A DNA stretch of 34,784 bases from the NCBI GenBank assembly GCA_019310125.1, contig JAFDEW010000008.1:1-34784 (forward strand). The letters run 5' to 3'. A program made the translations under genes and the position numbers. Origin of the DNA: Deltaproteobacteria bacterium. GTDB lineage: Bacteria > Desulfobacterota > Desulfobacteria > Desulfobacterales > UBA11574. The first letter of the stretch is position 1. The number at the start of each line of letters is the position of its first letter. The notes under the pieces were generated by a model, which did not search any database, was not told where the DNA came from, and saw nothing but the letters and a program-made list of their open reading frames with translations. Below are positions 3,773-31,341 of this stretch, piece after piece.

Positions 3773-4723
3773 ATGAATAAACAGGGCCTCCTCATTGCCT
3801 TTAAAGATGGAATCGGACTCACTAAATCAGAAGCAAAAGCGGCAGTGAATCCATTCTTTAATAAAATGTCCAATGCATTTGCTAATGGTGACAGAGTTAA
3901 AATTCGAGGCTTATGTTCGTTTTATGTCAAGAAATACAAGGTATACACCGGCCGAAATCCGAAAACCGGAGAACAGGTCAAGATAAAGCCGAAGAAGGAG
4001 AAATATATGCAGGAAGGAAATTATAAAAGTGCGTTAATTCTAGGTGTCTGTATTTTATTGGGCCTGGCTTTTTTGGGTTTTTTTTTAGGGTCCAGTGCCA
4101 TTAAGTTTAAGGAGTATGAACGGACAGTAACCGTAAAAGGGCTTTCAGAAAAAGAATATCCTGCTGATGTTGCGTTATGGCCGATCCATTTTTCATCCGC
4201 AAACAATGAGTTAGCCAAGTTGTACGAATCCATTGAAAAAGATACACATGAAATCATTGATTTTTTAAAAGACAATGGATTTGAAAAACAAGAAATAACC
4301 GTATCTCCTCCCGGTATTATCGATAAACTTTCCCAAGGCTATGAAAAATCAAAAATTGAATTTAGATATACCGCCACACAAACCATTACGGTGTATTCGA
4401 AGAAGATTAAAGATGTCAGGGCTACAATGAATAAATTGGCAGCGCTTGGAAAAAAAGGAATTGCCTTTACCGGTGATAGCTACCAAAATTCCACTGAATA
4501 CTTATTCACGAGATTGAATGAAATTAAACCCGTCATGGTGGAGGAGGCCACAACCAAAGCAAGAGAAGTTGCCGAGAAATTCGCAAAGGATTCTAACAGT
4601 AAATTAGGAAAAATAAAAAAGGCAAGACAAGGGCAATTTTCAATTAATAATAGAGACAAAAATAATCCCCACATTAAAAAAATCAGAGTTGTTTCAACTG
4701 TAGAGTACTATCTGTCTGATTAA
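3773..4723 (+). CDS. HU/IHF-like domain fused in frame to a membrane-anchored SIMPL (DUF541) domain protein
   Basis: Residues 1-76 match HU/IHF (NKQGLLIAFKDGIGLTKSEAKAAVNPFF...GRNPKTGEQVKIKPKK). From M79: TM segment ALILGVCILLGLAFLGFFLG, then SIMPL-like TVTVKGLSEKEYPADVALWPI. A second possible start with AAGGAG at ATG 4007. Confidence 0.82.
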   Translation: MNKQGLLIAFKDGIGLTKSEAKAAVNPFFNKMSNAFANGDRVKIRGLCSFYVKKYKVYTGRNPKTGEQVKIKPKKEKYMQEGNYKSALILGVCILLGLAFLGFFLGSSAIKFKEYERTVTVKGLSEKEYPADVALWPIHFSSANNELAKLYESIEKDTHEIIDFLKDNGFEKQEITVSPPGIIDKLSQGYEKSKIEFRYTATQTITVYSKKIKDVRATMNKLAALGKKGIAFTGDSYQNSTEYLFTRLNEIKPVMVEEATTKAREVAEKFAKDSNSKLGKIKKARQGQFSINNRDKNNPHIKKIRVVSTVEYYLSD

Positions 4724-12783: not shown

Positions 12784-14088
12784 ATGACCATGCATAATTT
12801 AAGCACCTGGGACTGGGAAACCGGTAAAAAGTTAATTGTGGATACCACAAAGTGGAAGGATATGTTCGACCGGGTAGAAGAACCTTATGCCAGCCCGGAC
12901 GGAGAAAGAATAGTGGCAGTCGTAAAAACCGGTGATATGGAATTTACTGTCTGTGAAAATGATGCTCCCTGGGAACGCACGTTTGACAAAATATGGTATT
13001 TAAAATTTGGACCTGACAATCGATTGACGGCATTGGTGTCGGATATGGGAACGTGGACTGTGGCGGTGGATGGTGCTGCTTGGGAAAACACCTTTGACTT
13101 TATATGGAATACCAAGTTCGGGGTTGACGGCAAAAACATCACGGTAGCCGCACAGAAAGACACAAAATACTTTGCAGTGACAAACGATATACCATGGGAG
13201 ACGAGATTTTCAGACCTGAGCAATCTCACTGTCAGCCATGATGGGAAAAGAGTTGCCGGTGTCGTCCCCACGGTCCCGATTAAACAAGGGGATATTTTTC
13301 AATTTCAGAAAGGTTGTTATTCCGCAGTAGTGGACGGCAAGCCATGGGATGCAAATTTCGTTAACGTCTGGGGCCTGGCCTTTTCCAATGATGCCGAGCA
13401 CGTGGCCGCAGAAGTGAGAACCTCCCTTTATGATTACACAATTGCTGTGGACGGAGTTCTTTGGGATAAGGTATATACTTCCGTTTGGACGCCGCAATTT
13501 AGCCCGGCAAACGGTTCGGTGACTGCGCCGGTAAGGATAGAAGGAAAATGGACGCTTGCTCAAGATGGAAAACCGTTTTGGGATCGCTTTTTTTATCAGC
13601 TCTGGCATCATATGTACAGCCCGGACGGAAAAAAGATAGCCGCCATCGTGGCAAGCAAATATGGCCGCTGGACCATCGCAGTTGACGGCATACCCTGGTC
13701 TCTCACCTTTGGTGATCTGGTCACCGATGCGGTTTTCAGCCCGGACGGAAACCGGATTGCCTGCATCGGAAAACAAGACGGAAAGTGGACCATTGCTGTG
13801 GACGGTAGGGCTTGGGGTGAAACATATGACATGGTCTGGCAGCCTGTTTTCAGTCCTGACAGCAGAACGGTCGCTGCAAAAGCAGAAAAAAATGGGCGGT
13901 ATACCATTGTGATAGACGGCAAACCTCTTAAAGAATCGTATCAAGCACTGTGGAATCCTGTTTTCAGCCCTGACTCCGAAAAGATTCTAATAAAAGGAAT
14001 CACGGGCGATTCACATGGCGGCAAGTATTTTCGACAGGTTTTGCCGGTAACCCATATCACCGGCGATCCCGGATCTCTCTCGAGCTAA
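12784..14088 (+). CDS. tmcD: TmcD-like tryptophan-rich beta-propeller/WD40-like protein
   Basis: Repeated unit FSPDGxxIAAxV..xGxWTIAVDGxPWxxxFxxxW across the protein. First gene upstream of tmcC/B/A homologues. Confidence 0.8.
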   Translation: MTMHNLSTWDWETGKKLIVDTTKWKDMFDRVEEPYASPDGERIVAVVKTGDMEFTVCENDAPWERTFDKIWYLKFGPDNRLTALVSDMGTWTVAVDGAAWENTFDFIWNTKFGVDGKNITVAAQKDTKYFAVTNDIPWETRFSDLSNLTVSHDGKRVAGVVPTVPIKQGDIFQFQKGCYSAVVDGKPWDANFVNVWGLAFSNDAEHVAAEVRTSLYDYTIAVDGVLWDKVYTSVWTPQFSPANGSVTAPVRIEGKWTLAQDGKPFWDRFFYQLWHHMYSPDGKKIAAIVASKYGRWTIAVDGIPWSLTFGDLVTDAVFSPDGNRIACIGKQDGKWTIAVDGRAWGETYDMVWQPVFSPDSRTVAAKAEKNGRYTIVIDGKPLKESYQALWNPVFSPDSEKILIKGITGDSHGGKYFRQVLPVTHITGDPGSLSS

Positions 14089-14104
14089 AAGGAAAAAAAG
14101 AGCC

Positions 14105-14764
14105 ATGCATGATATCTATAATTTTGTCAGCGGCCCGTTGGTCTGGGTCTCTTTTATCATTTTTTTCGCGGGGTGTTTGTACCGGCTGATCTCCATGGCC
14201 GTTTTGGCCAGGAAGAAAGATATATTCGTATATGAGTATATGAGCTTAAAATATGGGCTTCGGTCAATCCTGCATTGGATCATTCCCTTTGGAACGGTAA
14301 AATGGAGGAAAAATCCGTTTTTTACTATCGTCACATTTACATTTCATATCTGCATTATTTTGATTCCGATTTTTCTTAGTGCACATATCATTCTCTGGAA
14401 GGAATCGTGGAATATTAGCTGGTGGTATATTTCAGACACGGCTGCCGATGTAATGACGATCGTTGTTATTGCTTCATGTATTTTTTTTCTTATGAGAAGA
14501 ATCGTTCTGCCGGAGGTCAAGTACTTAACCTCTATTTCTGATTACGTCATACTTGCTATGGTTTCCGCACCCTTTATCACGGGTTTTTGGACATATCATC
14601 AGTGGCCTGGTTTTAGACTCATGGGAATTTTCCACATCATCTCCGGAGAGATCATGCTGGCGGCAATTCCTTTTACCCGCTTGATACATATGGTTTTCTT
14701 CCCGTTTACAAGAGGGTACATGGGGTCTGAATTCGGCGCCGTCAGGAATGCAAAAGATTGGTAG
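14105..14764 (+). CDS. tmcC: TmcC-like membrane cytochrome b subunit
   Basis: Multiple TM segments with His residues (FTFHICIILIPIFLSAHII, FHIISGEIMLAAIPFTRLIHMVFFPFTRGYMGSEFG), resembling the NarI/DsrM-like TmcC. Confidence 0.83.
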   Translation: MHDIYNFVSGPLVWVSFIIFFAGCLYRLISMAVLARKKDIFVYEYMSLKYGLRSILHWIIPFGTVKWRKNPFFTIVTFTFHICIILIPIFLSAHIILWKESWNISWWYISDTAADVMTIVVIASCIFFLMRRIVLPEVKYLTSISDYVILAMVSAPFITGFWTYHQWPGFRLMGIFHIISGEIMLAAIPFTRLIHMVFFPFTRGYMGSEFGAVRNAKDW

Positions 14765-14856
14765 GAAACGTAAGATAAAATCGTAACACTTGAATATGAA
14801 AGCCTCCGACTCGTGCAAAATTCAGGTCAAACGATTTTATAAAAGGAGAACACAAC

Positions 14857-16200
14857 ATGGCTGAACCTGCCGTTACTAATAAAGATGAAAGCAATAAAGT
14901 TGTTGATAAGGGAATTGATAAGGGAATTGAACGCTTAACTCCTGAAAAAATCAAGCGGGTTATCAACAAGGTTTTATCGTCGGAAACCGGCGCCCGGCTA
15001 AAGGCATATGTTGAAACCTGCGTCCACTGTGGACTTTGCTCTGAAGCTTGCCACTATTATCTTTCCCATGATAATGATCCGAAATTTTCTCCTGCGGGTA
15101 AGGTTAAACAAACCCTATGGGAAATATTAAAAAAAAAGGGCAACGTTGATCCTGAGTTTATAAGAAATGCCGCCCGCATCGCCTACACGGAATGCAACCT
15201 GTGCCGACGCTGCGCAATGTATTGCCCATTTGGTATAGACATTGCCTACTTAATATCCGTTGTGCGAAGGTTCTGCCATATGCTTGGGGTTACCCCGCTG
15301 TATATACAGGACACCGCACACAGCCATTCAGCCACCTTAAACCAGATGTGGGTAAAGGAAGATGAATGGATTGACAGTCTTTTTTGGCAAGAAGAAGAAG
15401 CACAGGATGAAATGCCGTCGTTAAGGATACCCATGGAAAAGGAAGGGGCTGAAATTCTTTACTGCGTGATTGCTCCTGAACCGAAATTTCGTGCACAGCT
15501 CATATATCAGGCTGCAGTTATCATGAATGTAGCCGGAGTTGATTTTACAATGCCGGCAACACCCGGATGGGACAACAGCGATCAATGTATGTTTACCGGG
15601 GACTACGAAATGATGGGCCGGCTAAAAAAGGCACATTTTGAAATGGCCATGCGGCTCAAGGTCAAACGGATTGTAATGGGAGAGTGCGGACACGCATTCC
15701 GATCCGTATATGATACGGGAAACCGATGGCTGGCATGGAAGATGCCGCCAATACCGGTTACACATGCCGTGGAATTCTATTACGAATTGTTAAAACAAGG
15801 AAAGATAAAAGTCGCTAAAAAGTATGATAAGCCGGTCACCTTTCAGGATCCCTGCAATATTGTCCGGGGAAGCGGCCTTCATGAAAAGGCACGTTATGTG
15901 GTTAATGCGATTTGTGAAGATTTTATCGAGATGCATCCCAATCGGGAACACAATTATTGTTGTTGTGCAGGAGGCGGTGTAGTAAATACCGGTCCTCCAC
16001 ACAAAATGGCACGCATTACAGGGAACAGGATTAAGGCAGAGCAGTTATCTGAGACAAAGCGCAAGGGTGCAAAGGTTGTCATCGCCCCTTGCCATAACTG
16101 TCATGGCGGAATAGAAGATATTCTTCATCACTACGGAATTGATATGGAACTGCATTTTCTGGGGGACATAATATACAACGTCATTGAAAAACCGGTATAA
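14857..16200 (+). CDS. tmcB: TmcB-like iron-sulfur protein with CCG domain
   Basis: CVHCGLCSEACHYYLSHDNDPKFSPAGKVKQ, CNLCRRCAMYCPFGIDIAYLI; C-terminal CCG-type EHNYCCCAGGGVV and IAPCHNCHGGI. Confidence 0.87.
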   Translation: MAEPAVTNKDESNKVVDKGIDKGIERLTPEKIKRVINKVLSSETGARLKAYVETCVHCGLCSEACHYYLSHDNDPKFSPAGKVKQTLWEILKKKGNVDPEFIRNAARIAYTECNLCRRCAMYCPFGIDIAYLISVVRRFCHMLGVTPLYIQDTAHSHSATLNQMWVKEDEWIDSLFWQEEEAQDEMPSLRIPMEKEGAEILYCVIAPEPKFRAQLIYQAAVIMNVAGVDFTMPATPGWDNSDQCMFTGDYEMMGRLKKAHFEMAMRLKVKRIVMGECGHAFRSVYDTGNRWLAWKMPPIPVTHAVEFYYELLKQGKIKVAKKYDKPVTFQDPCNIVRGSGLHEKARYVVNAICEDFIEMHPNREHNYCCCAGGGVVNTGPPHKMARITGNRIKAEQLSETKRKGAKVVIAPCHNCHGGIEDILHHYGIDMELHFLGDIIYNVIEKPV

Positions 16201-16246
16201 TTAGTAAAATCAGTTGGGCCGGGCGCATAAAATTGGGAGAATCCTG

Positions 16247-16633
16247 ATGAAAAAAAGGACAATGATAATATATGCGGTAATACTTCTGACAGGTTGCATG
16301 ATTGCGGTCATGTCCGGTTATTCACAGGAAGATGTGACAACTGTTGAAGACAGCGCATTTGAAAACAAGATGAGACCAGCGGTTCCGTTTCTGCATGATC
16401 AGCACAATGAAACGGCAGATCTTGACGAATGCAATACGTGTCATCATGTATATGAGGATGGAAAACCAGTTGAAGATGATTCTTCCGAGGGCCAGGAATG
16501 TTCAGAATGCCATACCTTTAATAAGGGCGATACCCCCATGTCCCTTGTAAACATTTACCATTTGCAATGCAAGGGGTGCCACCAGAAAAAAAAGGCCGGA
16601 CCGATCATGTGCAGCGAATGTCATCCAAGATAA
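16247..16633 (+). CDS. tmcA: TmcA-like tetraheme cytochrome c3 (type II)
   Basis: Signal peptide plus four CxxCH motifs: CNTCHH, CSECH, CKGCH, CSECH. ORF opens at 16214; ATG 16247 ([17 protein letters not shown]) starts the signal peptide. Confidence 0.87.
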
Positions 16634-16716: not shown

Positions 16717-18984
16717 ATGATTGATAAAGAGACGAAACGGCTTGCTTCTATTTTTGATGCCATGGGGCGGGGTGTTTATGTCATTGGGGATGATTACGTT
16801 ATAAAATTTATGAACAAGGCCAGTATTAACGCCTTTGGGGAAGGCGTTGGAAAAAAATGCTATCAGGTGATTGCCAATTGTGACAACGTCTGTTCCTGGT
16901 GCCGGGCAAAAGAAGTCTTTAAGGGAGAAACCCTTCGTTGGGAAAACTATTTTCCGCACATCAACAAAACTTTCGAGATTTTCGAATTGCCTTTGCAAAC
17001 CGATGAAGGAACCATATCGCATTTTTGTATATATCAAGACATTACAGAAATAAAAGAGCGCGAGAAAATGCTTCGCGCTTCCATAGAAGACTACAAAAAA
17101 TTGTTTGAACATGTGCGTGTGGGTGTGCACATGAGCAGCAAAGAAGGAAAATTTATTGATGCCAATCAGGCGCTTATGGAGATGTTGGGATACACGAGCA
17201 AAGAGGAGTTTTTTAAGGTAGATATAACCAGAGACCTTTATCTGGAACCTGAAGATCGCCGAAAATACATGGATCTGATTGAACGAGACGGTCACGTCAT
17301 TGACTATGAAGTTGATTTGAAGCGCAAGGATGGAAAAGTGATCTCGGTATTGCGAACCGCTCACGCACGATATGATCAAGAGGGGAATGTTATCGGGTTT
17401 GAAGGGATCTGTGTGGATCAAACCCAGAGAAAGGAGATGGAACGAAAGCTTAAAAAAGCGCATGACTTTCAAACAAACCTCATCCAGACCTCGATAGACG
17501 CAATCATTGCCAATGACCGTAAAGGCAACATTATCATTTTTAATCAAAGCGCTGAAAACATTTTCGGCTACACCCAGGAGGAAATTTCCAAAGTTCACGT
17601 CACCCAATTTTACAAAGACGGCGAGGCTAAAAAGATTAAGCAAATGATTTACGGGCCTGATCACGGCGGTCCCGGCCGTTTGGTTAACTTTAAAGTCGAA
17701 ATTGTCGATAAGGATGGGCAGATAGTCCCCATCCTGCTCTCTGCGACATTACTGTATGAAGAGGATCAGGAAGTTGCCACGGTGGGGTATTTTAAAGATA
17801 TGCGCGAGGTCAAGCGGCTGAAACAGGAGATCCATACGCTTTTTGAGTTTGAACACAACCTCATTCAGAGTTCCATAGATGCCATCATCGCCTCGGACAG
17901 GGATGGATGCATTATCGTTTTTAATCAGCAAGCCGAGAAACTGCTGGGGTATTCCGCATATGAAATGATCATGAAAATGTCTTTTAACGAGCTTTTCCCG
18001 CCGGCGATGTTGGAAGAGCTCAGGAACGAACTGGCTTCCGATGAATACGGAGGGGAAAACCGGCTCCTTCTTTTTGAGACATATATGATCAATAAAACCG
18101 GCGATAAGATCCCAGTCCAGCTTTCCGCAACGGTGATGTTTGATCAAGGCGAAGAGATCGGCATGGTTGGGTTTTTCAGGGATTTAAGAGAAATCAGGAG
18201 AATGGAACAGCAGTTTACCAATCAGGCCCGACTGCTTCACGAGCACAAAATGATTTCCCTGGGCAGGCTGTCCGCCAGCATTGTCCATGAGCTCAACAAC
18301 CCTCTTTCAGGCATATTAAACTATATTCGCCTGATGCTCAAGATTATCAAGAGGGGTGATTTGGAAACGAAAAATATAGAAAAGTTTCAACGGTATCTTA
18401 CCCTTGTTGAGAGTGAGACCAGCCGCTGCTCCAAGATCGTTTCCAATTTGCTGGCTTTCTCACGAAAATCCGAATTAGAACTTAAGGCAATGAGTATTAA
18501 CGAGCTTCTGGAAAAATGTATTCTGCTCGCCCAGCACAAACTCATGCTTCAGAATATCCAGATTAAAACCGATCTTGATCCGGGTATTCCAAAGGTTTTG
18601 GGGGACTTTAATCAAACCCAGCAATGCGTTATCAATCTAATTTTTAATGCGATTGACGCCATGCCGGATGGCGGCACCCTGACCCTGGCGGGTTCATTTG
18701 ATCCGGAAACACAGATGGTCGAGATAAAAATAGAAGATACCGGATGCGGTATTGCTGACCAAGACCTTCACCAGATTTTTGATCCTTTCTATTCCACAAA
18801 AACAGAGGGGAAGGGGCTTGGACTCGGACTTTCCATGGTTTACGGCATCATCGACCGTCATAATGGATCTGTCACCGTTGACAGCGAGCTGGACAAAGGG
18901 ACAGTTTTTACTATTCGCCTTCCCTCACTGAAGAGGGTGGATTACCCCAATGGCAATACAGAAGAACTTAGGGCTTCGCCCTAA
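16717..18984 (+). CDS. Multi-PAS sensor histidine kinase (no receiver domain of its own)
   Basis: Several PAS repeats, HisKA LGRLSASIVHELNNPLSGILNYI, HATPase N-box NLIFNAIDAMPDGG and G-boxes EDTGCGI...GKGLGLGLSMVYGI. Confidence 0.92.
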   Translation: MIDKETKRLASIFDAMGRGVYVIGDDYVIKFMNKASINAFGEGVGKKCYQVIANCDNVCSWCRAKEVFKGETLRWENYFPHINKTFEIFELPLQTDEGTISHFCIYQDITEIKEREKMLRASIEDYKKLFEHVRVGVHMSSKEGKFIDANQALMEMLGYTSKEEFFKVDITRDLYLEPEDRRKYMDLIERDGHVIDYEVDLKRKDGKVISVLRTAHARYDQEGNVIGFEGICVDQTQRKEMERKLKKAHDFQTNLIQTSIDAIIANDRKGNIIIFNQSAENIFGYTQEEISKVHVTQFYKDGEAKKIKQMIYGPDHGGPGRLVNFKVEIVDKDGQIVPILLSATLLYEEDQEVATVGYFKDMREVKRLKQEIHTLFEFEHNLIQSSIDAIIASDRDGCIIVFNQQAEKLLGYSAYEMIMKMSFNELFPPAMLEELRNELASDEYGGENRLLLFETYMINKTGDKIPVQLSATVMFDQGEEIGMVGFFRDLREIRRMEQQFTNQARLLHEHKMISLGRLSASIVHELNNPLSGILNYIRLMLKIIKRGDLETKNIEKFQRYLTLVESETSRCSKIVSNLLAFSRKSELELKAMSINELLEKCILLAQHKLMLQNIQIKTDLDPGIPKVLGDFNQTQQCVINLIFNAIDAMPDGGTLTLAGSFDPETQMVEIKIEDTGCGIADQDLHQIFDPFYSTKTEGKGLGLGLSMVYGIIDRHNGSVTVDSELDKGTVFTIRLPSLKRVDYPNGNTEELRASP

Positions 18985-19291: not shown

Positions 19292-20611
19292 ATGTTTAAA
19301 AAAGTTCTTTTCGCCGCATCTCCCACAAAGGCCAGTGAACGTGCTGCGGACATGGCTTTTGCTCTGGCCAAGCAAAGTAACGCCAGGTTGTATATTTTCC
19401 ATGCCTACGGTGTGGACTCAAACGGGTGGGGGGGGATAAGACATGTTGTGCCTTCCGGGAAGGTAGAAGAAATAAAAGGGGAAATAGCTCATTACTATCA
19501 GGAAAAGATCGAGAAATTCGGGGTTCAAAATTATATCATCGAAGTTGTCGCAGGAATGCCCCATAGCGAAATCCTGCGTTTTGCCAGAAATAAAACCGTT
19601 GACCTGATTGTTATGGGTTCCCATGAAAGAGAAACCGATGCGGATCTGCCGACAAGATGGGGAATGGGCGGCAGCAGCCTCGAAAAAGTGAGTCAAAGGG
19701 CGCGCTGTCCCGTGATGGTCGTTTCCAAGCAAGTTCCTAAGATCTGGACGAAAGATGCCATTGGTGAGCGCCGGGATTTCCGGATATTGGTGGTGGATGA
19801 TGAACTCATCGTTCGCGATTCCATCAAGGAGTGGCTTGTAGATGAAGGTTTTGACGTGGATATGGCCGCGTCAGGTCCGGAGGCTCTGGATAAACTGGCA
19901 ACCCAACCGTTTCACCTGATGCTTACGGATATCAAGATGCCGGGGATGGACGGTGTTGAACTCCTTAAAAAGGCCCATAAACGCTTCCCGGATCTTACCG
20001 TAATAATGATGACCGCCTACGCAACCGTAGAGACCGCCATAGAAGCTTTGAAGATAGGCGCCCTTGACTATCTCCTCAAACCATTTGACCCTGAGATCCT
20101 TGTTGATAAGGTCTTTCAGGTATACCAGGATTTTGAGGCGACCCGATCGGTAAAGGTGACCTTTTCTAACATTGTCCTGGCTACGGATTTCTCTGAGCGG
20201 GGTCATCGTGCCTTCGATTTTGCCTTCAGGATGACCCGCCAATACCAAGCCAAACTCCACATCTTTCACGTGGTGCCCGTTATCCATGATGAGAAAGTTT
20301 TAATATTAGATCAAGCGAATATAGAAAAACGTATTCATGATGCTCAGGAAAAAATGAAAAACAAATATGGCTCGGAATTAGAAGGCGTTGTAGAATATTC
20401 TTTTGAATCGTGGGAAGGAAGGCCATATGTCGAGATCCTCAAACTTGCCCGGTGGAGGAATGCCGATTTGATCATTATGGCCCATCATTCCAAAGAAATT
20501 GATCCGGAAAAAGCGTTGCTCGGTTCAAATGTGGTCCGGGTTGCCCTTTCTGCTGCATGTCCAACCATTAGTATAAACCGGCTTCCGATTTCCCTTCGAG
20601 CACCGGTGTAA
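19292..20611 (+). CDS. UspA-REC-UspA fusion protein
   Basis: N-terminal Usp KKVLFAASPTKASERAADMAFALAKQ...DLIVMGSHER; REC RILVVDDE...LMLTDIKMPGMDG...MTAYATVE...DYLLKPF (19772-20137); C-terminal Usp NIVLATDFSERGHRAFDFAFRMTRQY...DLIIMAHHSKE. Confidence 0.92.
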   Translation: MFKKVLFAASPTKASERAADMAFALAKQSNARLYIFHAYGVDSNGWGGIRHVVPSGKVEEIKGEIAHYYQEKIEKFGVQNYIIEVVAGMPHSEILRFARNKTVDLIVMGSHERETDADLPTRWGMGGSSLEKVSQRARCPVMVVSKQVPKIWTKDAIGERRDFRILVVDDELIVRDSIKEWLVDEGFDVDMAASGPEALDKLATQPFHLMLTDIKMPGMDGVELLKKAHKRFPDLTVIMMTAYATVETAIEALKIGALDYLLKPFDPEILVDKVFQVYQDFEATRSVKVTFSNIVLATDFSERGHRAFDFAFRMTRQYQAKLHIFHVVPVIHDEKVLILDQANIEKRIHDAQEKMKNKYGSELEGVVEYSFESWEGRPYVEILKLARWRNADLIIMAHHSKEIDPEKALLGSNVVRVALSAACPTISINRLPISLRAPV

Positions 20612-20655: not shown

Positions 20656-21525
20656 TCATGACAGTAATTTGTCCCGGAACGATTTGGTAATGGAAAGATT
20701 TAAGTCCAATCGCACATCCTGTTCCGAGAGGCCGATGGCCAGCCCCAGAAACTGAGGAAGATAAAGGATGGATATGCTCAGATCCTCTTGGCATATCCCT
20801 GATATTTTTTTCTGGTACGCCTCCAGGTTCATCTGGCACATGGGACATACCGTGATGATGGCATCTGCTCCCCTGGCTGCCTTCAATATAGCGGCCACGA
20901 GTTCCAGAGCCACCTCTGGCTTGGTGGTCATATGAGAGGCTCCGCAGCATCTGCCCCCCATGTTCCACTGATGGATCTTTGACCCCGCGGCTTTAATAAC
21001 CCCTTCCATGGAGCGGGGGTCCTCGGGATCGTCAAAAATAGAGTACGGACGAAGGCACTGGCATCCATAATAGGGAGCGACAGTAAGATTTGTAAACGGC
21101 TTTTTCACGCGGGCAAAGATCTTTTTAGACCCCACGTCATTTGCCACTACGTCAAGGAGATGCCGGACCCCCAGCCGACCGCGCAAGTTAAGTTTTTCCT
21201 CAGCTAATATGATGTTGATTTTATCAAGGAGCTCCGAATCCTTTCGTATCTTTTCTTCAACCTTTTTCAGATTCAGATAGCACGCGCTGCACGGAACAAG
21301 AATTTCCTTGAATCCATCCATGTTCTCGGCCTTTGCGAGAACCAATGCCGGTAACGCTAAAGAAAGAAGGTGGCTTGTGGCCTCGGCAGCACTGGCGCCG
21401 CAACACGTCCAGTCTTCAAGTTCAATGAGTTCTGCTCCAAGTTCCTGCATAAAAGCCTTGGTGGAGGCGTTGTATTCTAAAGCTGTTCCCTCGAGAGAAC
21501 AGCCTGGGTAATATAGGTATTTCAT
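20656..21525 (-). CDS. hdrB: Heterodisulfide reductase subunit B-like protein
   Basis: MKYLYYPGCSLEGTALEYNASTKAF; CCG motifs DWTCCGASAAEATSHLLSLALPALVLA and GGRCCGASHMTTKPEVAL. ORF opens at 21540; the internal Met is the likely start. Confidence 0.9.
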   Translation of the reverse strand: MKYLYYPGCSLEGTALEYNASTKAFMQELGAELIELEDWTCCGASAAEATSHLLSLALPALVLAKAENMDGFKEILVPCSACYLNLKKVEEKIRKDSELLDKINIILAEEKLNLRGRLGVRHLLDVVANDVGSKKIFARVKKPFTNLTVAPYYGCQCLRPYSIFDDPEDPRSMEGVIKAAGSKIHQWNMGGRCCGASHMTTKPEVALELVAAILKAARGADAIITVCPMCQMNLEAYQKKISGICQEDLSISILYLPQFLGLAIGLSEQDVRLDLNLSITKSFRDKLLS

Positions 21526-21560
21526 ATATACTCTCTTCAATCTTAAACTGAATAAAACAG

Positions 21561-21845: not shown

Positions 21846-22394
21846 CTATTTTTCTTCCTTTTTTTCTAACTCTTCCACCTTACGAAAGATCGCTTTTAAC
21901 GCACCGTTCCCTTTTGAAGGGATCTCGAAAGAAACCTTTCCTTTGCCCATGAGTTTTATCCCCAAGGGGGCAAACTGAAGGGCCAGAAAGGGGTTTTTCA
22001 TGGAAATACAATAGAGGGTCATCAATTCCATCTCCCTGACCCGGCCATGACGGTATACGCTCTCCATAAAACTTTTATAAAAACGGATGCTCTTCTTATA
22101 GGGCGCCAGATTCTCCTTTGCAGCGATCTGCTTGAGTGAACTCATCGCCTCGGTAAGCGGAAGACCCCGTGGGCATCGCAGGGTACAGTAATAGCAGACA
22201 GAACATAGGGAGAAGGTCTTGGAATGAAAAATGGTTTCTTTTTCTCCTCTAAGGACATTGTACCATAGCTGACGGGGCGTAAGATCCATGGCAAAGGCAT
22301 TGGGACAAGAACCCGTACACGTGCCGCACTGGATGCAGGTGCTTACCATATCCCGGACAGGTGCCACGAGTTCTAATTTTTCCAAAGGGTTCAT
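21846..22394 (-). CDS. hdrC: Heterodisulfide reductase subunit C-like ferredoxin
   Basis: CIQCGTCTGSCPNAFAMDLTPRQLWYNVLRGEKETIFHSKTFSLCSVCYYCTLRCPRGLPLTEAMSSLK. Confidence 0.9.
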   Translation of the reverse strand: MNPLEKLELVAPVRDMVSTCIQCGTCTGSCPNAFAMDLTPRQLWYNVLRGEKETIFHSKTFSLCSVCYYCTLRCPRGLPLTEAMSSLKQIAAKENLAPYKKSIRFYKSFMESVYRHGRVREMELMTLYCISMKNPFLALQFAPLGIKLMGKGKVSFEIPSKGNGALKAIFRKVEELEKKEEK

Positions 22395-22729: not shown

Positions 22730-25700
22730 TTATTCAAACGCAAAATCAATGACATCGAGCATTTGCCGGTCTGAATACCCAACAAGTACTGCCGCGCTGT
22801 TGGGACACACCGTGGCGCATGATCCACACCCCTGGCACATGAAGGTACGGGCGCCATAGGGGCAGGCGTCGATGCACTGCTCACATAAACTGCAAAGGCT
22901 GTGATGGACCTCCGCCACGACTTTCCCGGAAGGCATCTGCTTGTGGCAAAGAATTCTTAAGGCACGCTGGGACGCAGCCCTGGCAGTGGCTATGGATTCC
23001 GCAATGTTGCGGGGAGAATGAGCCAGGCCACAGGCAAAAACACCTTCCTTGATCGAATCCACAGGTCTCCATTTCGACTCTGCCTCCTGGAAGAAACCGT
23101 CCTGATCAACGGTCACGCCAAAGGCTTCTGCCAGGTCCTTGGGAAGTGTGGGAACAATGCCGGTGGCAAGGACAACAAGATCAGCATCTATCCGGATCTT
23201 TTGCCCGATAATCGGTTCAAGAGCGGTTATCTGAACAGATCCGTCGGTGACCGTCACCCGGGGTTTTTCAGCCACATCATACGGGATAAAGATTACACCC
23301 GTCTTGCGGGCTTGAGTGTAATAGGACTCGACAAATCCATAGGCCATAATATCCCGATAAAAAATGTAGATGTCAATATCAGGATTTTGCCCCTTGAGAC
23401 ATAGAGCATCTTTTAAAGATGTATTACAGCATATTCGGCTGCAGTAATTCCTCGGCTCCTCTCTGGAATCCACACACTGAATCATGACCACGGATTTGAG
23501 TTGGCTCGGATCGAGAGTATTGTTATTTATTTTTTGCTCCAGCTCTTTTTGGGTGATGATTGCTTCGCTGTTGCCGTAGTTATATGAGGTGGTTGTCGCT
23601 TCCATTCCTCCGGTGGCAAGAATGGTTACCCCATGTTCCAAGGTTTCCGTTCCTTTTGCGTTGTCCTCAATCGTGGTATAGAAACACCCCACCTGACCAT
23701 AGGAAGCGAGTACCCGGCTTCGGGTGTGAACCCGGATCAAGGGATGTTTTTCCAGAGTATGCCGAGTTTTCTCCAAAATAATCTCTGTTATGTTTCCTTC
23801 CAGGTCTCGCTCCAACCAGTTAAGATTACCCCCCAAGGTCTCCTTTTTTTCCACCAGATCTACTTGAAAGCCGTGATCTGCGATGGCAAGGGCGGCGGTC
23901 ATTCCGGCGATTCCCCCGCCTACCACCAGAGCCTGCTGAAAAATCTTCACCCTGGGTGCAGGCGCAGGGTCAGCCCATTTAAGTCTGGCAAGGCCCATTC
24001 CCAAGATAGACGAAAGCTCATTGATGATCGCTGTTATTTCATCTGCTGACGGGGTGTCATCTTTGAGTTTTGACAGTTGATCCATGAGCCTTAGATTGAC
24101 CACATGAATGAGGCCGGGCACCAACCCCACACGTTGTCCCAGTTCCATGGTTTTTCGAGAATACACATAGGGAATGCAGGCCCCGATCAGAACCCGGTTG
24201 GGTTTGTATTTTTCCACCAATTCAACAAGGTTCTCCCAGCCCGCAGCGGTACAGGTCTGTTCAAGAAACAAAACCTGGTCCACAGACGGGTTGGTCTCAA
24301 GGCGCCGGACAAGTTGCTGCGAATCGAAAAGCTTGGAAAGGGTGTCGCCGCAGGTACAGACAATTACCATGACTCTGGGCGGTTCCTGGGAAATGTCGAG
24401 AAAAGGCTCATTGGATTTAGGTTCTAGAGCAAGGCTGCCACCGGTGTTATGAATCACAAGAGATGCAGCCAAAGCAGCAGCAGAAGCCTGGATTACAGAA
24501 TCATTGATGTCCTTGAGACCTGAAAAAGAACCTCCCAACAGGACTCCTTCCTTACTTGTCAGGGCCTCTGAAAAAGGTTCGGCCTGACAGAATCCCCACT
24601 GATTGAGAGAAATTCCAACCATTTCGGCCAATTCAGCCGTACCCGGTGCCGGCCTTTGGCCCACGGAGAGGACCACCATATCAAAGCGCTCTTCCTTGCG
24701 GATGCCGGTATAATCAACATGACCGACAATAAGATCGCCGCTGGATTCATCCTGGATTAAGGAATGAACACGCCCCCTTTCAAATCGAACCCCGTGCTGG
24801 GTTTCCGCCTGGGATCGATAGCGCTGGAACGACTTTCCAAACGTGCGCATATCCATGTAAAAAATGGCCGCTTCCAGGTCCTCTTCAGCTTTTTCCTTGG
24901 CCACCAGGGCTTCCTTAATGGCATGCATGCAGCAGACGAAGGAGCAAAAATCGGCGTCGATCTGAATGTCTCTGGATCCCACACACTGAAACCAGGCCAC
25001 CTTGCGAAGGGGTTTGCCGTCGGAAGGTCGCGCCAGGTGACCCTGTTGCATGGCGGCACTGCTTAAAATTCTTTCAAAATCAAGACTCGTTACCACATTC
25101 GGATAAACCCCATACCCGAAAGTGTTCTCGCCTTCGGAAGGATCGAAATAGGCCGTACCTCCACAAAGGACCAGAGCTCCGACTTCAATGGGGGGTTCAC
25201 TGGCGGTTTCATGTTCCTGGTATTTCTGAAAAACCATTTGAATAAGATTATCCGGCTCAAATGGTTTTATAAGATAGTCGGATGCCCCTATCTTCATGGC
25301 TTCCACAGCAGTTTCTACCGTGGCATAGGCGGTCATCATAATTACGGTAAGATCGGGAAAATTCTCTTTGGCTTTTTGAAGGAGTTCAACACCGTCCATT
25401 CCCGGCATTTTAATGTCCGTGAGCAGAAGTTGATAGGTTTGTTTTGACAAAAGTTCCAGGGCTTCCGGTCCGGATGCGGCCATATTCACGGAAAACCCTT
25501 CATCTTCAAGCCACTCCTTGATCGAATCGCGAACGATCAATTCGTCGTCCACCACCAGGATACGAAAGTCTCTGTGTATGTGCTCTGAAACCTTGATGGC
25601 GTCCGTGGGACAAACCGCTTCACAGTCCCCACACCGGGTACAGACGTCCATATCTATTACATAGGGATTGGGAATCGCATGGGGAACCGGAAGGTAGATC

Positions 25701-26134
25701 GCCTTTCGAGTGGTCATGCCGGCGTGGAAAGAATCCGGAACTTCCACCGGGCAGACTTTCACACACTCACCGCATCCCACACACAGAACAGGATCAACAA
25801 GTCTCGGCTTCTGACGCAGCGTCACCTGAAAATGGCCCGGTTCGCCTTCCACAGAGGCAAGTTCTGTGGAAAGGCGGATTTCGATGTTTTCGTGGAAAAG
25901 TCCTTTGCGAAGACAATACTGGGAGGAGGTATCTCGATCCACCAGAGGAAGCATTTTGCACATGCCGCAGCGATTGGTGGGAAACTGATAATCGAGTTGG
26001 CTCAGAATTCCTCCAATGTGAGGTAAACGGTCGATGAGGATGACCCCATAGCCGAATTCCGCCAGATCTAGGGCAGCCCGAATACCGCTGATTCCCGATC
26101 CCACCACCAGTGCTTTGCCGATTTTTTTATTCAT
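22730..26134 (-). CDS. Tandem HdrA-type flavin/iron-sulfur protein with an embedded REC receiver domain
   Basis: GKALVVGSGISGIRAALDLAEFGYGVILID; ferredoxin clusters CVGCGECVKVCP, CTRCGDCEAVCP; REC at residues 188-309 (25208-25573); second FAD module QQALVVGGGIAGMTAALAIADHGF; C-terminal CSLCEQCIDACPYGARTFMCQGCGSCATVCPNSA. Confidence 0.92.
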   Translation of the reverse strand: MNKKIGKALVVGSGISGIRAALDLAEFGYGVILIDRLPHIGGILSQLDYQFPTNRCGMCKMLPLVDRDTSSQYCLRKGLFHENIEIRLSTELASVEGEPGHFQVTLRQKPRLVDPVLCVGCGECVKVCPVEVPDSFHAGMTTRKAIYLPVPHAIPNPYVIDMDVCTRCGDCEAVCPTDAIKVSEHIHRDFRILVVDDELIVRDSIKEWLEDEGFSVNMAASGPEALELLSKQTYQLLLTDIKMPGMDGVELLQKAKENFPDLTVIMMTAYATVETAVEAMKIGASDYLIKPFEPDNLIQMVFQKYQEHETASEPPIEVGALVLCGGTAYFDPSEGENTFGYGVYPNVVTSLDFERILSSAAMQQGHLARPSDGKPLRKVAWFQCVGSRDIQIDADFCSFVCCMHAIKEALVAKEKAEEDLEAAIFYMDMRTFGKSFQRYRSQAETQHGVRFERGRVHSLIQDESSGDLIVGHVDYTGIRKEERFDMVVLSVGQRPAPGTAELAEMVGISLNQWGFCQAEPFSEALTSKEGVLLGGSFSGLKDINDSVIQASAAALAASLVIHNTGGSLALEPKSNEPFLDISQEPPRVMVIVCTCGDTLSKLFDSQQLVRRLETNPSVDQVLFLEQTCTAAGWENLVELVEKYKPNRVLIGACIPYVYSRKTMELGQRVGLVPGLIHVVNLRLMDQLSKLKDDTPSADEITAIINELSSILGMGLARLKWADPAPAPRVKIFQQALVVGGGIAGMTAALAIADHGFQVDLVEKKETLGGNLNWLERDLEGNITEIILEKTRHTLEKHPLIRVHTRSRVLASYGQVGCFYTTIEDNAKGTETLEHGVTILATGGMEATTTSYNYGNSEAIITQKELEQKINNNTLDPSQLKSVVMIQCVDSREEPRNYCSRICCNTSLKDALCLKGQNPDIDIYIFYRDIMAYGFVESYYTQARKTGVIFIPYDVAEKPRVTVTDGSVQITALEPIIGQKIRIDADLVVLATGIVPTLPKDLAEAFGVTVDQDGFFQEAESKWRPVDSIKEGVFACGLAHSPRNIAESIATARAASQRALRILCHKQMPSGKVVAEVHHSLCSLCEQCIDACPYGARTFMCQGCGSCATVCPNSAAVLVGYSDRQMLDVIDFAFE

Positions 26135-26152: not shown

Positions 26153-27295
26153 CTACTTTCCGATTCCGACAACATCACTGAGTTCATCCTCCCGGAATAC
26201 CGACAGAGGAGGATCATCCTCAATACTTTTCCCGGGTTCGTACTCGAACCCTTTTTGTGTGCGAAATGAAACGGTTCGAAACAACTCCATCACCGGAATA
26301 TTGTTGGGGCAGGCATTGGAACACTGTCCGCACCCGATACATGCGGTACTCATGTGTGCCAGTCGGGTAATATGATAAAACACGGTATCGGTGGGCATCT
26401 TGATGACACCCTTTCGATTGGCCCATCGAAGGTACTGTATCGGTTCATGGTTAAAAACATCTGTGACAAAGACACATTCCTTACAATAGCAAACCGGACA
26501 GGCCACCCTGCAGTTGTAACAGTTTATGCAGTTGGCGAGATAGATGTTCAGCTTCTCCACGCTGTTGGTGACCGCAGTCGTTTCTTCAAACATGTTATCA
26601 CGATAAGCCGTTCTTTCAGCGATCAGCGATTCAACAACCGTAGCGCGTTCCGGTGGTTCCTCTGCATGAGAAAGATTAAGGTTTCTATAGAGATCCTCTC
26701 CTTTTGAAGTCCGGGCCTGGATCAAAAGGTTGTTGTTGGTATCCATCCCGAAAAGTCCGATTAAAATGTCCGCACCATTGGGGACAGGGTGCTCGCATGC
26801 TTTGCAGGCCGGATTCAAGTCAACCCCTTGCTCGGACATTTTTTTTCCGGATAAGACATTCCGGTAAAATCTTGAAGTGAATTCTGCTTCTTGTCCTCCG
26901 ACAATTTGAGTATAATCGACATTCTTGTATGTTCCCATGCAGTCGATTCCCACCAGCACCACTTCTTCAATCCGGCCTTGCTTGAGCTTCACCAATTCGA
27001 TAAATGCGCGTATTTCACAGGGACGCAATACAACCGCCACTCTTTGTCCCATGGGTTTACGAGTGAGCCGGGAAACAATTTTGGCTGCATTTATGGGAAA
27101 TGCCGGTGCCAGAGGATCGGCACCATTAAGTTGTTCGGGATCGGTCACAAGCGTCGGCATCACTGCATTCTTCATGGGGAGGTGTTGTGGAACCAGAATT
27201 GCACTGATATCATCCAACCGGAGGATGGATCGAAAAAACTCTCGCAGAGTTGCCAAAAGGTCTCCGTCTTTTACTTTGATCTTCGCTGTTTTCAC
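26153..27295 (-). CDS. FrhB/FdhB-like (F420 hydrogenase/formate dehydrogenase beta-type) iron-sulfur protein
   Basis: VAVVLRPCEIRAFIELVKLKQG...VLVGIDCMGT; CINCYNCRVACPVCYCKECVF; CIGCGQCSNACPNNIPVMELF. Confidence 0.78.
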   Translation of the reverse strand: MKTAKIKVKDGDLLATLREFFRSILRLDDISAILVPQHLPMKNAVMPTLVTDPEQLNGADPLAPAFPINAAKIVSRLTRKPMGQRVAVVLRPCEIRAFIELVKLKQGRIEEVVLVGIDCMGTYKNVDYTQIVGGQEAEFTSRFYRNVLSGKKMSEQGVDLNPACKACEHPVPNGADILIGLFGMDTNNNLLIQARTSKGEDLYRNLNLSHAEEPPERATVVESLIAERTAYRDNMFEETTAVTNSVEKLNIYLANCINCYNCRVACPVCYCKECVFVTDVFNHEPIQYLRWANRKGVIKMPTDTVFYHITRLAHMSTACIGCGQCSNACPNNIPVMELFRTVSFRTQKGFEYEPGKSIEDDPPLSVFREDELSDVVGIGK

Positions 27296-27353: not shown

Positions 27354-27776
27354 TTATAATACCATCTTTGATTTGGCCTCGTTGGGTCCCAGTCTCTTAA
27401 TTTGTGTTACCATTTTACGAATGGTCTCGGCAAACTGGATTCCGTCGCTGGCGCCAATCCAGGTCAACCGGAGCCGTTCATCGTCAAAGCCGAATTGGGG
27501 AAGGATCTCTTTGAGAAGCTTGATCCGTCTTCGCGCTTTGTAATTTCCGTTGATGTAATGGCAATCTCCGGGGTGACATCCACTGACAAGGACCGCATCT
27601 GCCCCCTCAAGAAAGGCCTTTATCACATATTTGGGGTCAACCATGCCGGTGCACATAACCCGGATCAATCTCACGTTGGCAGGATACCCCAATCTTGAAG
27701 TTCCGGCCAGATCTGCGGCGGTATATGTACACCAGTTACATACAAAAGCGATGATTGTCGGTTCAAAGTCAGCCAT
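27354..27776 (-). CDS. mvhD: MvhD-like hydrogenase iron-sulfur subunit
   Basis: PTIIAFVCNWCTYTAADLAGTSRLGYPANVRLIRVMCTGMVDPKYVIKAFLEGADAVLVSGCHPGDCHYINGNYKARRR. Confidence 0.92.
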   Translation of the reverse strand: MADFEPTIIAFVCNWCTYTAADLAGTSRLGYPANVRLIRVMCTGMVDPKYVIKAFLEGADAVLVSGCHPGDCHYINGNYKARRRIKLLKEILPQFGFDDERLRLTWIGASDGIQFAETIRKMVTQIKRLGPNEAKSKMVL

Positions 27777-27791
27777 GATCCCCCTCCCATT

Positions 27792-30700
27792 TTACATTCC
27801 CACTGAATTCAGTGAATCAATGATTCCTTCGAGTTCTGCAAAAATCTGTTTTTCATTGAAATGTTTGACCTGTGCAGCACCGCTGGGACAAAATCCCGCA
27901 CAACTCCCACATCCTTTGCAAAGGGCTTCATTTACCATGGAGATGCCCGTACGCACGTTATATTCTATGGCGGAATACGGACAGAGCTCAATGCAGGTTT
28001 GGCATCCCGCGCACACGTCCGGATCGATCCATGATATGATCGGAGCAATCTGCACCTTTCCCAGAGTAGCTAATGCCAGGGCTTTGACAGCTGCGCCGGA
28101 TGCCTGGCAAACCGAATCCGGAATATCTTTAGGACCCTGACAGACCCCGGCCAGAAACACCCCGTCCGTAGCAGTATTCAGAGGACCCAGTTTGGGGTGT
28201 TCTTCCAGAAAAAAACCGTCCGCACCCTGGTTGACACCAAAAATTCTGCCAACCTCTTGAGCATCGCTACGGGCCTGAATCGCATTACAGAGGATCACCA
28301 TATCCACGGGAACCCGTATCCTTCGTCCCAAAAGGGTGTCTTCCGCAATGGCAATGAGTTTGCCTTGCTCTTGCGGTTTGATCGCCTGATCGGTAATCTC
28401 CGCCACCTTGCCCCTGATGAAATTGGTTCCTTCTTTCTGACACCTTTCGTAAAACTCTTCGTACCCTTTGCCAAAGCACCGCATGTCAATGTAAAAATTA
28501 AAAATTTGAGCATCGTGGCCTACTTTTTCATGGATGAGATGGGCATACTTGAGGGCGTACATACAGCAAACCCGGGAGCAGTATTTATGATAATTCACAT
28601 CCCGGCTGCCAATGCAGTGAAGAATGGCCACGCTTTTCGGAATTTGGGTGAACTCCCCGGTTTTGTCTCTGATAAGGATCTCGCCGCCGGTGGGTCCCGT
28701 AGCATTGCTGAGACGCTCGAACTCAAGGGCGGTAAAAACATTTGGGTATTTGCCGTAGCCAAACTGCTTCATGGGCGTGGGATCCATGGCGTCGTATCCT
28801 GTGGCGATGATAATGCTCCCAACCTTTACCTCTAATTCTTCTTCTTTCATAGTATGGTCTATGGCGTTTGCCTCACAAACCCGAACGCATTCCATACATT
28901 CACAGCACAGACCGCAATTCAGGCAACGCCGGGCTTCTCGTTGTGCCTCGCTTTCTGAAAAACCAAGGTCCACTTCGTCAAAGGAAATTGCACTGATCTT
29001 TGGGTCCAGGTGCTGTGGATGTGCCCGGGATTTCCGGTAAAGCCCATCCGGAATTTCCTGCCAATCTCGGCCCGGTTGTTCCCGGACCTGAAGCTGTTTT
29101 GCATAAAGGTCCAGATCTTGGCCATTGATATAGCGATGCATTGCTTCGACGGCCTTGTGACCGGCGGCCACCGCCTCTATTACCGTCGCCGGACCCGTGA
29201 CCGTATCGCCTCCGGCAAACACGTCGGGAATGTTTGTTTGCATGGTTTGGGGGTTTACCTTCAAAGTGTTTCGCGGAGACCATTTAAGATCCGGCTCCCG
29301 GTTGGCCCAGGGTGCATGGATTTTCTGACCAATGGCCGGAATCACCGCATCACAGGGGATTACGAATTCGGAGCCGGCCACCGGCACCGGGCGACGGCGT
29401 CCGCTGGCATCCGGCGGCCCCAGTTCGGTTTGGATGCATTCAAAGCCGTGGACTTTTCCTTGTTTTTCAAGAATCTTGACCGGAGCGGTGAGAAACGAAA
29501 AGCGAATTTCTTCCTTTTTAGCGCCTTCAACCTCTTCAGCATAGGCCGGCATTTCGTGCTCCGAGCGACGATAGACCACAGTAATTTCCCGGGCGCCCAG
29601 GCGCTTTGCAACCCGTGCCGCATCAATGGCCACGTTCCCGCCGCCGATGACGACAACTTGTCTGCCGGGGCATGTTTTATCCCCCAAATTTGCTTGTCTT
29701 AAAAAACGAACCGCATCCATAACGCCCCGGGTTTCCTGCTCACCGGGAATGTGCAACTCCAGGGAATCATGAGCGCCAATTCCGAGAAACACAGCGGAGA
29801 ACCCCTGTTCTTTCAAATCGTTGAGTGTAAAATCAGACCCGAACCGGACTCCGGTTTGCGTCTTGACACCCAGGCGAAGAATATAGTCGATCTCCTGATC
29901 AAGAACGTTTTGAGGCAGCCGAAAATCCGGAATTCCCACCCGGAGCATCCCGCCCAAGACGTCAAGGGCCTCAAAAATGGTTACCTGATAGCCCTTTAAC
30001 CGAAGGTAGTATGCTACGGTAAGACCGGAAGGCCCTGACCCGACCACTGCCACTTTTTCCGAACGTTCCTGGATTTCCGGTGGTTCGAGTTCTTTCAGGT
30101 TTGCATGATCGGCGGCAAAGCGCTTCAAATTCCTGATGGCAATGGCCTCATCCATCTCCAACCTTCGGCACTGAGATTCACAAGGATGCGGACAGACTCG
30201 TCCAAGCACTCCCGGCAGCGGCAATCGCTCCATAATTAGCCGGATAGCTTCCCGGTACTTGCCCTGGCTGATGAGCTGGACATAGCCTTGGACATTGATG
30301 CCCGCCGGACAAGCGATCATACAAGGGGCCCGATCTTTTTTATCTATACAAAAGGTAATGGGTACGGCCTGTGGAAATGCTCTGTAAATGGCCGCGCGAT
30401 GGCCCAGCCCCTCATCCCATTCACTCGGGACCGACACCGGACAGACATTCGCACATTCACCACATCCCGTACAAATCCCCTCCTTCACATAACGCGGCTT
30501 ACGACGGATCCTCACCGTGTAGCTGCCAATGAATCCCGACACTTCCGTTACTTCGCTGTATGAGATCAACTCGATGTTTGGGTTCTGGGCCACTTCAACC
30601 ATCTTTGGGGTTCCAATACAGGCGGCACAGTCGAGCGTGGGAAAGGTCTTATCGAATTGAAGCATATGCCCGCCAATGGTAGTGGATTTTTCCACCAGAT

Positions 30701-31202
30701 ATACTTTATGCCCGGCATTGCCGATATCTAACGCGGCTTGCATGCCTGAAATACCGGCACCCACGACCATGATATCAGGATGTACGACGGCCTCACGATC
30801 ATAAAGGCTTTCATGGTAATTGACCCGGTTGATCGCCGCCGCCGCCAGGGTTTTCGCTTTCCGGGTGGCTTCATCTTTGTCCTCGGTGACCCAGGAAACT
30901 TGTTCGCGAACAGAGGCCATCTGGAAAAAATAAGGATTGAGACCGGCCCGCCGGCAAGCCCCTTGAAAGGTCTTTTCATGGAGTCTGGGTGAGCAAGAGG
31001 CTACGACCACCCGGTTAAGGTCAAGTTCCTTAATGTCTTTTTCGATCATCTCCTGGCCCGGGTCCGAACACATAAACTTGTAATCCCGGGCGATCACCAC
31101 ATTTTTCAGCGTTCGGGCAAAGGCCGCCACTTCCTCAACTCGAACCTTGCCGGCGATATTGATCCCGCAATGGCAGACATAAAAACCTAACCTGATGGAC
31201 AT
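27792..31202 (-). CDS. HdrA with an inserted GltD-like (NAD(P)H-dependent glutamate synthase small-subunit type) flavoprotein module
   Basis: HdrA N-terminus MSIRLGFYVCHCGINIAGKVRVEEV...VASCSPRLHEKTF; GltD-type CMIACPAGINVQGYVQLISQGKYREAIRLI...CPHPCESQCRR...VAVVGSGPSGLTVAYYL...VVVIGGGNVAIDAARVAKRLGA; HdrA C-terminus with CAGCQTCIELCPYSAI and CKGCGSCAGFCPSGA. ORF opens at 31319; ATG 31202 with GGGAG upstream is the likely start. Confidence 0.92.
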   Translation of the reverse strand: MSIRLGFYVCHCGINIAGKVRVEEVAAFARTLKNVVIARDYKFMCSDPGQEMIEKDIKELDLNRVVVASCSPRLHEKTFQGACRRAGLNPYFFQMASVREQVSWVTEDKDEATRKAKTLAAAAINRVNYHESLYDREAVVHPDIMVVGAGISGMQAALDIGNAGHKVYLVEKSTTIGGHMLQFDKTFPTLDCAACIGTPKMVEVAQNPNIELISYSEVTEVSGFIGSYTVRIRRKPRYVKEGICTGCGECANVCPVSVPSEWDEGLGHRAAIYRAFPQAVPITFCIDKKDRAPCMIACPAGINVQGYVQLISQGKYREAIRLIMERLPLPGVLGRVCPHPCESQCRRLEMDEAIAIRNLKRFAADHANLKELEPPEIQERSEKVAVVGSGPSGLTVAYYLRLKGYQVTIFEALDVLGGMLRVGIPDFRLPQNVLDQEIDYILRLGVKTQTGVRFGSDFTLNDLKEQGFSAVFLGIGAHDSLELHIPGEQETRGVMDAVRFLRQANLGDKTCPGRQVVVIGGGNVAIDAARVAKRLGAREITVVYRRSEHEMPAYAEEVEGAKKEEIRFSFLTAPVKILEKQGKVHGFECIQTELGPPDASGRRRPVPVAGSEFVIPCDAVIPAIGQKIHAPWANREPDLKWSPRNTLKVNPQTMQTNIPDVFAGGDTVTGPATVIEAVAAGHKAVEAMHRYINGQDLDLYAKQLQVREQPGRDWQEIPDGLYRKSRAHPQHLDPKISAISFDEVDLGFSESEAQREARRCLNCGLCCECMECVRVCEANAIDHTMKEEELEVKVGSIIIATGYDAMDPTPMKQFGYGKYPNVFTALEFERLSNATGPTGGEILIRDKTGEFTQIPKSVAILHCIGSRDVNYHKYCSRVCCMYALKYAHLIHEKVGHDAQIFNFYIDMRCFGKGYEEFYERCQKEGTNFIRGKVAEITDQAIKPQEQGKLIAIAEDTLLGRRIRVPVDMVILCNAIQARSDAQEVGRIFGVNQGADGFFLEEHPKLGPLNTATDGVFLAGVCQGPKDIPDSVCQASGAAVKALALATLGKVQIAPIISWIDPDVCAGCQTCIELCPYSAIEYNVRTGISMVNEALCKGCGSCAGFCPSGAAQVKHFNEKQIFAELEGIIDSLNSVGM

Positions 31203-31272
31203 GACCGCTCCCTTTGTTAGGAAATATAGAAAAGAAAATATTGACGGTCTCGTAAAAAGTCCAACTTCTGCG

Positions 31273-31341
31273 TTGTGCCGCATTTCGAAATCATTCAACG
31301 TACGACAAGTACGCCTCATGATTGCAAAATTTGCACGCCTT
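31273..31341. repeat. Dispersed palindromic repeat, copy 2
   Basis: ttgtgccgcatttcgaaatcattcaacgtacgacaagtacgcctcatgattgcaaaatttgcacgcctt, near-identical to 3531-3600. Confidence 0.8.

Follow-up and report, generated by a model that had tools for sequence, protein, structure and literature searches.

A receiver domain within the HdrA-type flavoprotein of a conserved Hdr operon in Desulfobacterales

Gene order at the locus and architecture of HdrA

The window, by which we mean the whole 34,784-nucleotide stretch of DNA analysed here (contig JAFDEW010000008.1 of a Deltaproteobacteria bacterium), harbors on its minus strand an operon with the conserved order HdrL-MvhD-FrhB-HdrA(REC)-HdrC-HdrB. 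HdrL (27792..31319) is recognized from profiles and from described homologs as an HdrA with a GltD/NfnB-like insertion in its ferredoxin domain (PMC2702500, PMC9012536). It is followed by an MvhD/FlpD subunit (27354..27776), an FrhB/FdhB-like iron-sulfur protein (26153..27295), the HdrA-type flavoprotein with which this report is concerned (22730..26134), HdrC (21846..22394) and HdrB with its two CCG domains (20656..21540). Convergent to the operon, on the plus strand, are the Tmc complex genes TmcD, TmcC, TmcB and TmcA (12784..16633), a soluble PAS-PAS-PAS-HisKA-HATPase histidine kinase (16717..18984) and a USP-REC-USP protein (19292..20611), assigned from profiles and, for the kinase and the Tmc genes, from neighbourhood. 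The same set is found in the nearest relative, L207. Elsewhere in the window, an ORF at 3773-4723 appears by eye to encode an HU-like DNA-binding domain, a membrane segment and a SIMPL/DUF541-like domain.

The HdrA ORF is open over 1134 amino acids and encodes a single chain with two TrxR-like halves. The first of these begins with the N-terminal part of a FAD domain (residues 1-108; 25811..26134), delimited by alignment with 5ODC and by published comparison (PMC9012536) and containing the motif C56-x2-C59. An inserted ferredoxin domain with 8 cluster cysteines follows (residues 109-183; 25586..25810), identified by Pfam, conservation and the 5ODC alignment, and the FAD domain resumes after the REC domain (residues 316-570; 24425..25189). 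The second half consists of a homologue of the HdrA N-terminal domain (residues 584-725; 23960..24385), a second TrxR-like FAD domain assigned by Pfam and AlphaFold2 (residues 731-1062; 22949..23944) and a C-terminal ferredoxin domain assigned by Pfam and the 5ODC alignment (residues 1073-1119; 22778..22918). The first half thus has the equivalent of canonical Cys197 (C59) and the ferredoxin insert and is without the N-terminal domain, while the second half has the N-terminal-domain homologue in front and is without the ferredoxin insert. Pfam places ferredoxin repeats on both sides of the REC domain and assigns the second half a pyridine-nucleotide-disulfide-reductase-like flavoprotein domain.

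Every segment of the protein other than the receiver can be aligned with the Methanothermococcus HdrA of 5ODC (phmmer E=2.7e-112). Residues 7-182 correspond to 145-310 of 5ODC and residues 316-509 to 319-511; in the second half, residues 584-763 correspond to 2-174 and residues 966-1115, including the C-terminal ferredoxin, to 468-632. C59 is aligned with Cys197 of the canonical protein. Among the fusions C56 and C59 are invariant, and C593, C595, C628 and C653 are conserved in at least 90%. Foldseek searches with the model of the protein return HdrA chains as the top matches. The equivalog cut-offs of the NCBIfam HdrA models are not reached (best HdrA2 model, 662 bits against 1100); since those models represent methanogen proteins fused to MvhD, we call this an HdrA-type protein outside the NCBIfam named subfamilies. 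Compared with its nearest relatives, the window HdrA is 12 residues shorter, in frame, at approximately position 22846 (residue ~1096). This gap lies in the C-terminal ferredoxin, in the stretch separating its two cluster motifs, and may be a real deletion or an assembly error.

The REC domain occupies residues 188-309 (25208..25573, minus strand). Pfam Response_reg (PF00072) matches residues 192-301 (window 25232-25561; E=1.5e-33) and scores 115.7 bits where the cut-off is 30.2, covering positions 1-110 of the 111 in the profile; this is the second-best of approximately 100 receiver matches in the genome. The AlphaFold2 model of the whole HdrA (pLDDT 88, pTM 0.87) has a regular (beta-alpha)5 receiver fold at residues 191-311. 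The active-site residues are retained, namely the acidic pair Asp196-Asp197 (codons at 25544..25549), the phospho-acceptor Asp240 (25415..25417), Thr268 (25331..25333) and Lys290 (25265..25267). About 15 residues separate the end of the second ferredoxin motif (C165-C175) from the REC domain, and HdrA homology restarts at residue 316. The initial annotation, which had described a complete receiver with all catalytic residues, in an unbroken frame between the second ferredoxin motif and the next HdrA segment, is therefore borne out by both the profile scan and the structure model. From the break in the 5ODC alignment at this point, the REC domain takes the place of about 8 canonical HdrA residues (5ODC ~311-318). 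In G000:C499, a REC-less paralogue from this genome, approximately 7 residues span the site. The ferredoxin region looks like a repeated insertion site, since the neighbouring HdrL has its GltD/NfnB-like block there too.

Conservation, distribution and origin of the fusion

D196, D197, E198, D240, T268 and K290 are identical in all 100 distinct fusions compared, which excludes a degenerate receiver. Mean column entropy across the same 100 fusions is 1.08 bits in the REC domain, compared with 1.05 in the most conserved FAD segment and 1.3-2.4 in the rest of the protein; the linkers flanking the REC domain are free to vary (2.6). Nei-Gojobori values against near relatives give a dN/dS of roughly 0.1 for the receiver. 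By these sequence measures, the REC domain is under purifying selection.

One genus (L197, L198, L215 and L218) has lost both the ferredoxin insert and the middle, N-terminal-like domain at 571-730, and the REC domain is kept with all of its residues. The receiver is thus not tied to the ferredoxin arm only, and the proposal that it gates that arm alone is weakened. The short ORFs of this genus are complete genes minus a domain, and selenocysteine is not supported as the cause of short or broken copies. In L143 (CP070697.1) an in-frame TGA interrupts the REC-HdrA gene outside any cysteine motif, with a run of N nearby.

The REC-HdrA fusion is found in approximately 145 of 389 Desulfobacterales genomes, using a query that crosses both junctions and a threshold of E < ~1e-70. 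Most of these matches extend over the full query and lie in open frames of 1100-1200 amino acids, and a few end at contig edges. A phylum-wide sample of 395 genomes yielded 15 matches, 8 of them from other orders. Carriers include Desulfosarcina widdelii PP31, Desulfonema magnum 4be13 and Candidatus Desulfatibia vada, and finished isolate genomes are among them. At 76 anchored REC-HdrA loci, the neighbours are MvhD (74), an FrhB-like protein (72), HdrL (71), HdrB (67) and HdrC (66), some of the misses being contig ends. The window genome itself consists of 535 contigs, which might raise the suspicion of a chimeric assembly or mis-join, a possibility that the initial annotation had also flagged. 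The same architecture is present, however, in dozens of independent assemblies and in finished isolates, within a conserved operon, and we regard the probability of such an artifact as negligible.

A search with the HdrA core alone, which makes no demand on the receiver, revealed no REC-less orthologue at or above 51% identity among the genes that could be judged: those found were the same fused genes or were cut by contig ends, and clearly REC-less proteins appeared from 50% down. In a FastTree phylogeny of the core without the REC domain, 24 REC-HdrAs form a single clade against 22 REC-less HdrAs (support 100). As far as these trees show, a single insertion with no observed loss is the simplest account. 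Searches for viral relatives returned unrelated receivers only, and searches for plasmid relatives returned one distant HdrA. NtrC-type regulators adjoin the operon in L148 (12340-13776) and L162 (12267-13712), and their receivers are the closest to the HdrA receivers. This similarity is a hint as to the source of the inserted domain.

Kinases linked to the operon

Downstream of HdrB, most loci contain a membrane kinase of approximately 770 amino acids and a soluble REC-HATPase protein (REC-kinase hybrid). The usual membrane kinase has the architecture HAMP-PAS-PAS-HisKA-HATPase with a predicted periplasmic PAS domain, and the soluble protein has an SHGxKG-type box whose His is invariant. At 70 of 75 REC-HdrA loci, but at only 4 of 19 REC-less HdrA loci, the latter all from one family, there is a kinase ORF no more than 5 kb away (Fisher P=5e-10, ignoring kinship). 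The linkage is not absolute, as no kinase is nearby at several loci (L139, L140, L144, L192 and L203).

The predicted periplasmic PAS-like domain contains CxxCH and CX3-4CH motifs in 53 of 63 membrane kinases (for example, L154:7231-9576); the remaining ten lack them and are truncated or otherwise shorter ORFs (507-702 amino acids). An AlphaFold2 model of the membrane kinase (pLDDT 82) resembles periplasmic PAS sensors including GSU0935 and GSU0582 of Geobacter (PDB 3B42 and 3B47), which bind c-type heme. The match of the sensor model to these structures is partial, with TM-scores by target length of 0.50 (3B42) and 0.37 (3B47). From motifs and model together, the linked membrane kinases look like periplasmic heme sensors in most species. 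One kinase with heme motifs is also found near a REC-less HdrA (G005:C654), and such kinases may therefore act on transcription too.

A profile search of the window's own genome did not reveal a heme sensor kinase, and its genus is without one. The initial annotation had proposed the soluble kinase at 16717-18984 as a phosphodonor. This kinase is conserved next to the operon within the genus, and the adjacent USP-REC-USP protein has a receiver that shares 70% identity with the HdrA REC and groups among the HdrA receivers in the tree. In two lineages the USP receivers nest within the HdrA receivers, each beside its local HdrA partner (SH-aLRT 90 and 85, from few columns), a pattern that points to duplication of one gene into the other, or conversion between them, and to a kinase serving both. 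A DHp motif, SLGxLxASxVHExNNP, is common to the window kinase and to kinases adjoining the operon in several lineages. The assignment is plausible for the window genus. It does not extend to most relatives, which have the heme-motif membrane kinase and the REC-kinase hybrid instead. Four clustered cysteines (C48, C55, C59 and C62; 16858-16902) are found in the first PAS region of the window kinase and could bind a metal or an Fe-S cluster.

Proposed control of the Hdr complex and comparison with known systems

A complete receiver in HdrA, adjoined by sensor kinases, suggests that the enzyme is adjusted directly by a signalling relay. We consider it likely that the linked histidine kinases phosphorylate the HdrA REC and thereby tune the Hdr complex post-translationally. 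The tandem HdrA would belong to a soluble HdrABC-MvhD-FrhB-HdrL electron-transfer complex and presumably acquired its phosphorylatable REC domain through a single insertion, in an ancestor of the Desulfobacterales and their close relatives. Asp240 would receive its phosphoryl group from the linked kinases, which in most relatives would be the soluble REC-kinase hybrid together with the membrane kinase, whose PAS sensor in the periplasm would be of the heme-c type, and in the window genus the soluble PAS kinase. Phosphorylation could then alter either the working of the FAD half or the way in which this half docks with partners. These are likelier targets than the ferredoxin arm alone, because the REC domain emerges from the FAD domain at the foot of the ferredoxin insert and outlasts the loss of that insert. 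In this way, the flow of electrons between NAD(P)H, ferredoxin and the disulfide partner of HdrBC might follow the redox state that the kinase senses. Phosphotransfer is inferred here, as are its effect, which could be to switch the complex on or off, and the electron-transfer step under control. A more specific version of the proposal can be offered tentatively: the heme-c sensor kinase and the hybrid kinase may form a phosphorelay ending in the HdrA REC. Under this version, flavin-based electron bifurcation or confurcation in the cytoplasm of a large group of sulfate reducers would be set directly by the periplasmic redox state, the window genus having been rewired to a cytoplasmic PAS kinase.

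Other roles for the receiver can be envisaged. Receivers commonly work through switchable protein-protein contacts, and the REC domain could, once phosphorylated, mediate docking or dimerization and so bring the complex to a partner such as Tmc or to the membrane, while catalysis stays unchanged. Its retention where the inserted ferredoxin domain was lost would fit such a role, as would the Tmc genes adjoining the locus in the window and several relatives; Tmc is next to only a minority of loci, however, and we think this unlikely as the explanation. The direction of information could also be reversed, with HdrA doing the sensing: its FAD and Fe-S centers, according to their redox state, would alter REC phosphorylation or phosphatase behaviour, and this would be reported to the linked kinases and on to transcription via NtrC-type or USP-REC proteins. 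The close relationship among the receivers of HdrA, the USP-REC proteins and the NtrC-type regulators of L148 and L162, the kinases linked to them in common and the REC-kinase hybrids adjoining HdrA are consistent with this arrangement, but most loci already have a dedicated heme-motif sensor kinase and have no transcription factor next to the kinases, making it quite improbable. It is very unlikely that the receiver leaves the enzyme unaffected and serves only to absorb phosphate or to space the flanking domains: a spacer would not need the D/D/D/T/K invariance seen in 100 of 100 sequences, and the REC-less HdrAs of the same genomes manage with some 7 residues at the site.

To our knowledge, the control of flavin-based electron bifurcation in anaerobes is largely open. 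If the receiver in HdrA acts as expected, sulfate reducers abundant in marine sediments would adjust bifurcation within seconds by phosphorelay rather than by transcription. The linked kinases would reveal the signal, and cultured isolates such as Desulfosarcina widdelii and Desulfonema magnum make the question testable.

HdrA complexes, tandem HdrAs, HdrA-NfnB insertions and receivers with enzymatic outputs are already known; we found no description of a receiver inside HdrA in the open-licence literature. The response regulators CheB and RpfG have enzymatic outputs, but they are signalling enzymes with an N-terminal REC domain. As in the window HdrA, their receiver is covalently joined to an enzyme, whereas the receiver of HdrA sits within a central electron-transfer enzyme. 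The Geobacter proteins GSU0582 and GSU0935 share the periplasmic fold and the heme-c-type motifs of the usual linked kinase but are chemotaxis receptors.

The HdrA of the methanogen HdrABC-MvhADG complex (5ODC, 8RVY) has, like the window protein, a TrxR-like FAD domain, an inserted ferredoxin with eight cysteines, the N-terminal domain to which the window homologue corresponds and a C-terminal ferredoxin. In contrast, it has no REC domain and a single TrxR half, where the window HdrA has a receiver and two fused halves. In Desulfobacterium autotrophicum HRM2, the HdrL2/HdrA4 locus (locus VIII) contains tandem hdrL/hdrA, mvhD, an fdhB-like gene and hdrB/hdrC, and HdrL has a GltD/NfnB-like block in its ferredoxin region; a figure legend also names kinase and regulator genes near hdr loci (PMC2702500). 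Locus VIII resembles the window operon, and the text of that paper, which is the basis of our comparison, makes no mention of a receiver in HdrA4 (PMC2702500). Among the ANME archaea, HdrA3, HdrA4 and HdrA9-11 are tandem HdrA fusions and HdrA-NfnB proteins with complementary distribution of Cys197 and the N-terminal domain, and in HdrA9-11 of ANME-1 an NfnB domain is inserted in the ferredoxin region (PMC9012536). These fused pairs have complementary halves like those of the window HdrA but in reversed order, and their insert is a redox domain, whereas that of the window HdrA is a signalling domain (PMC9012536).
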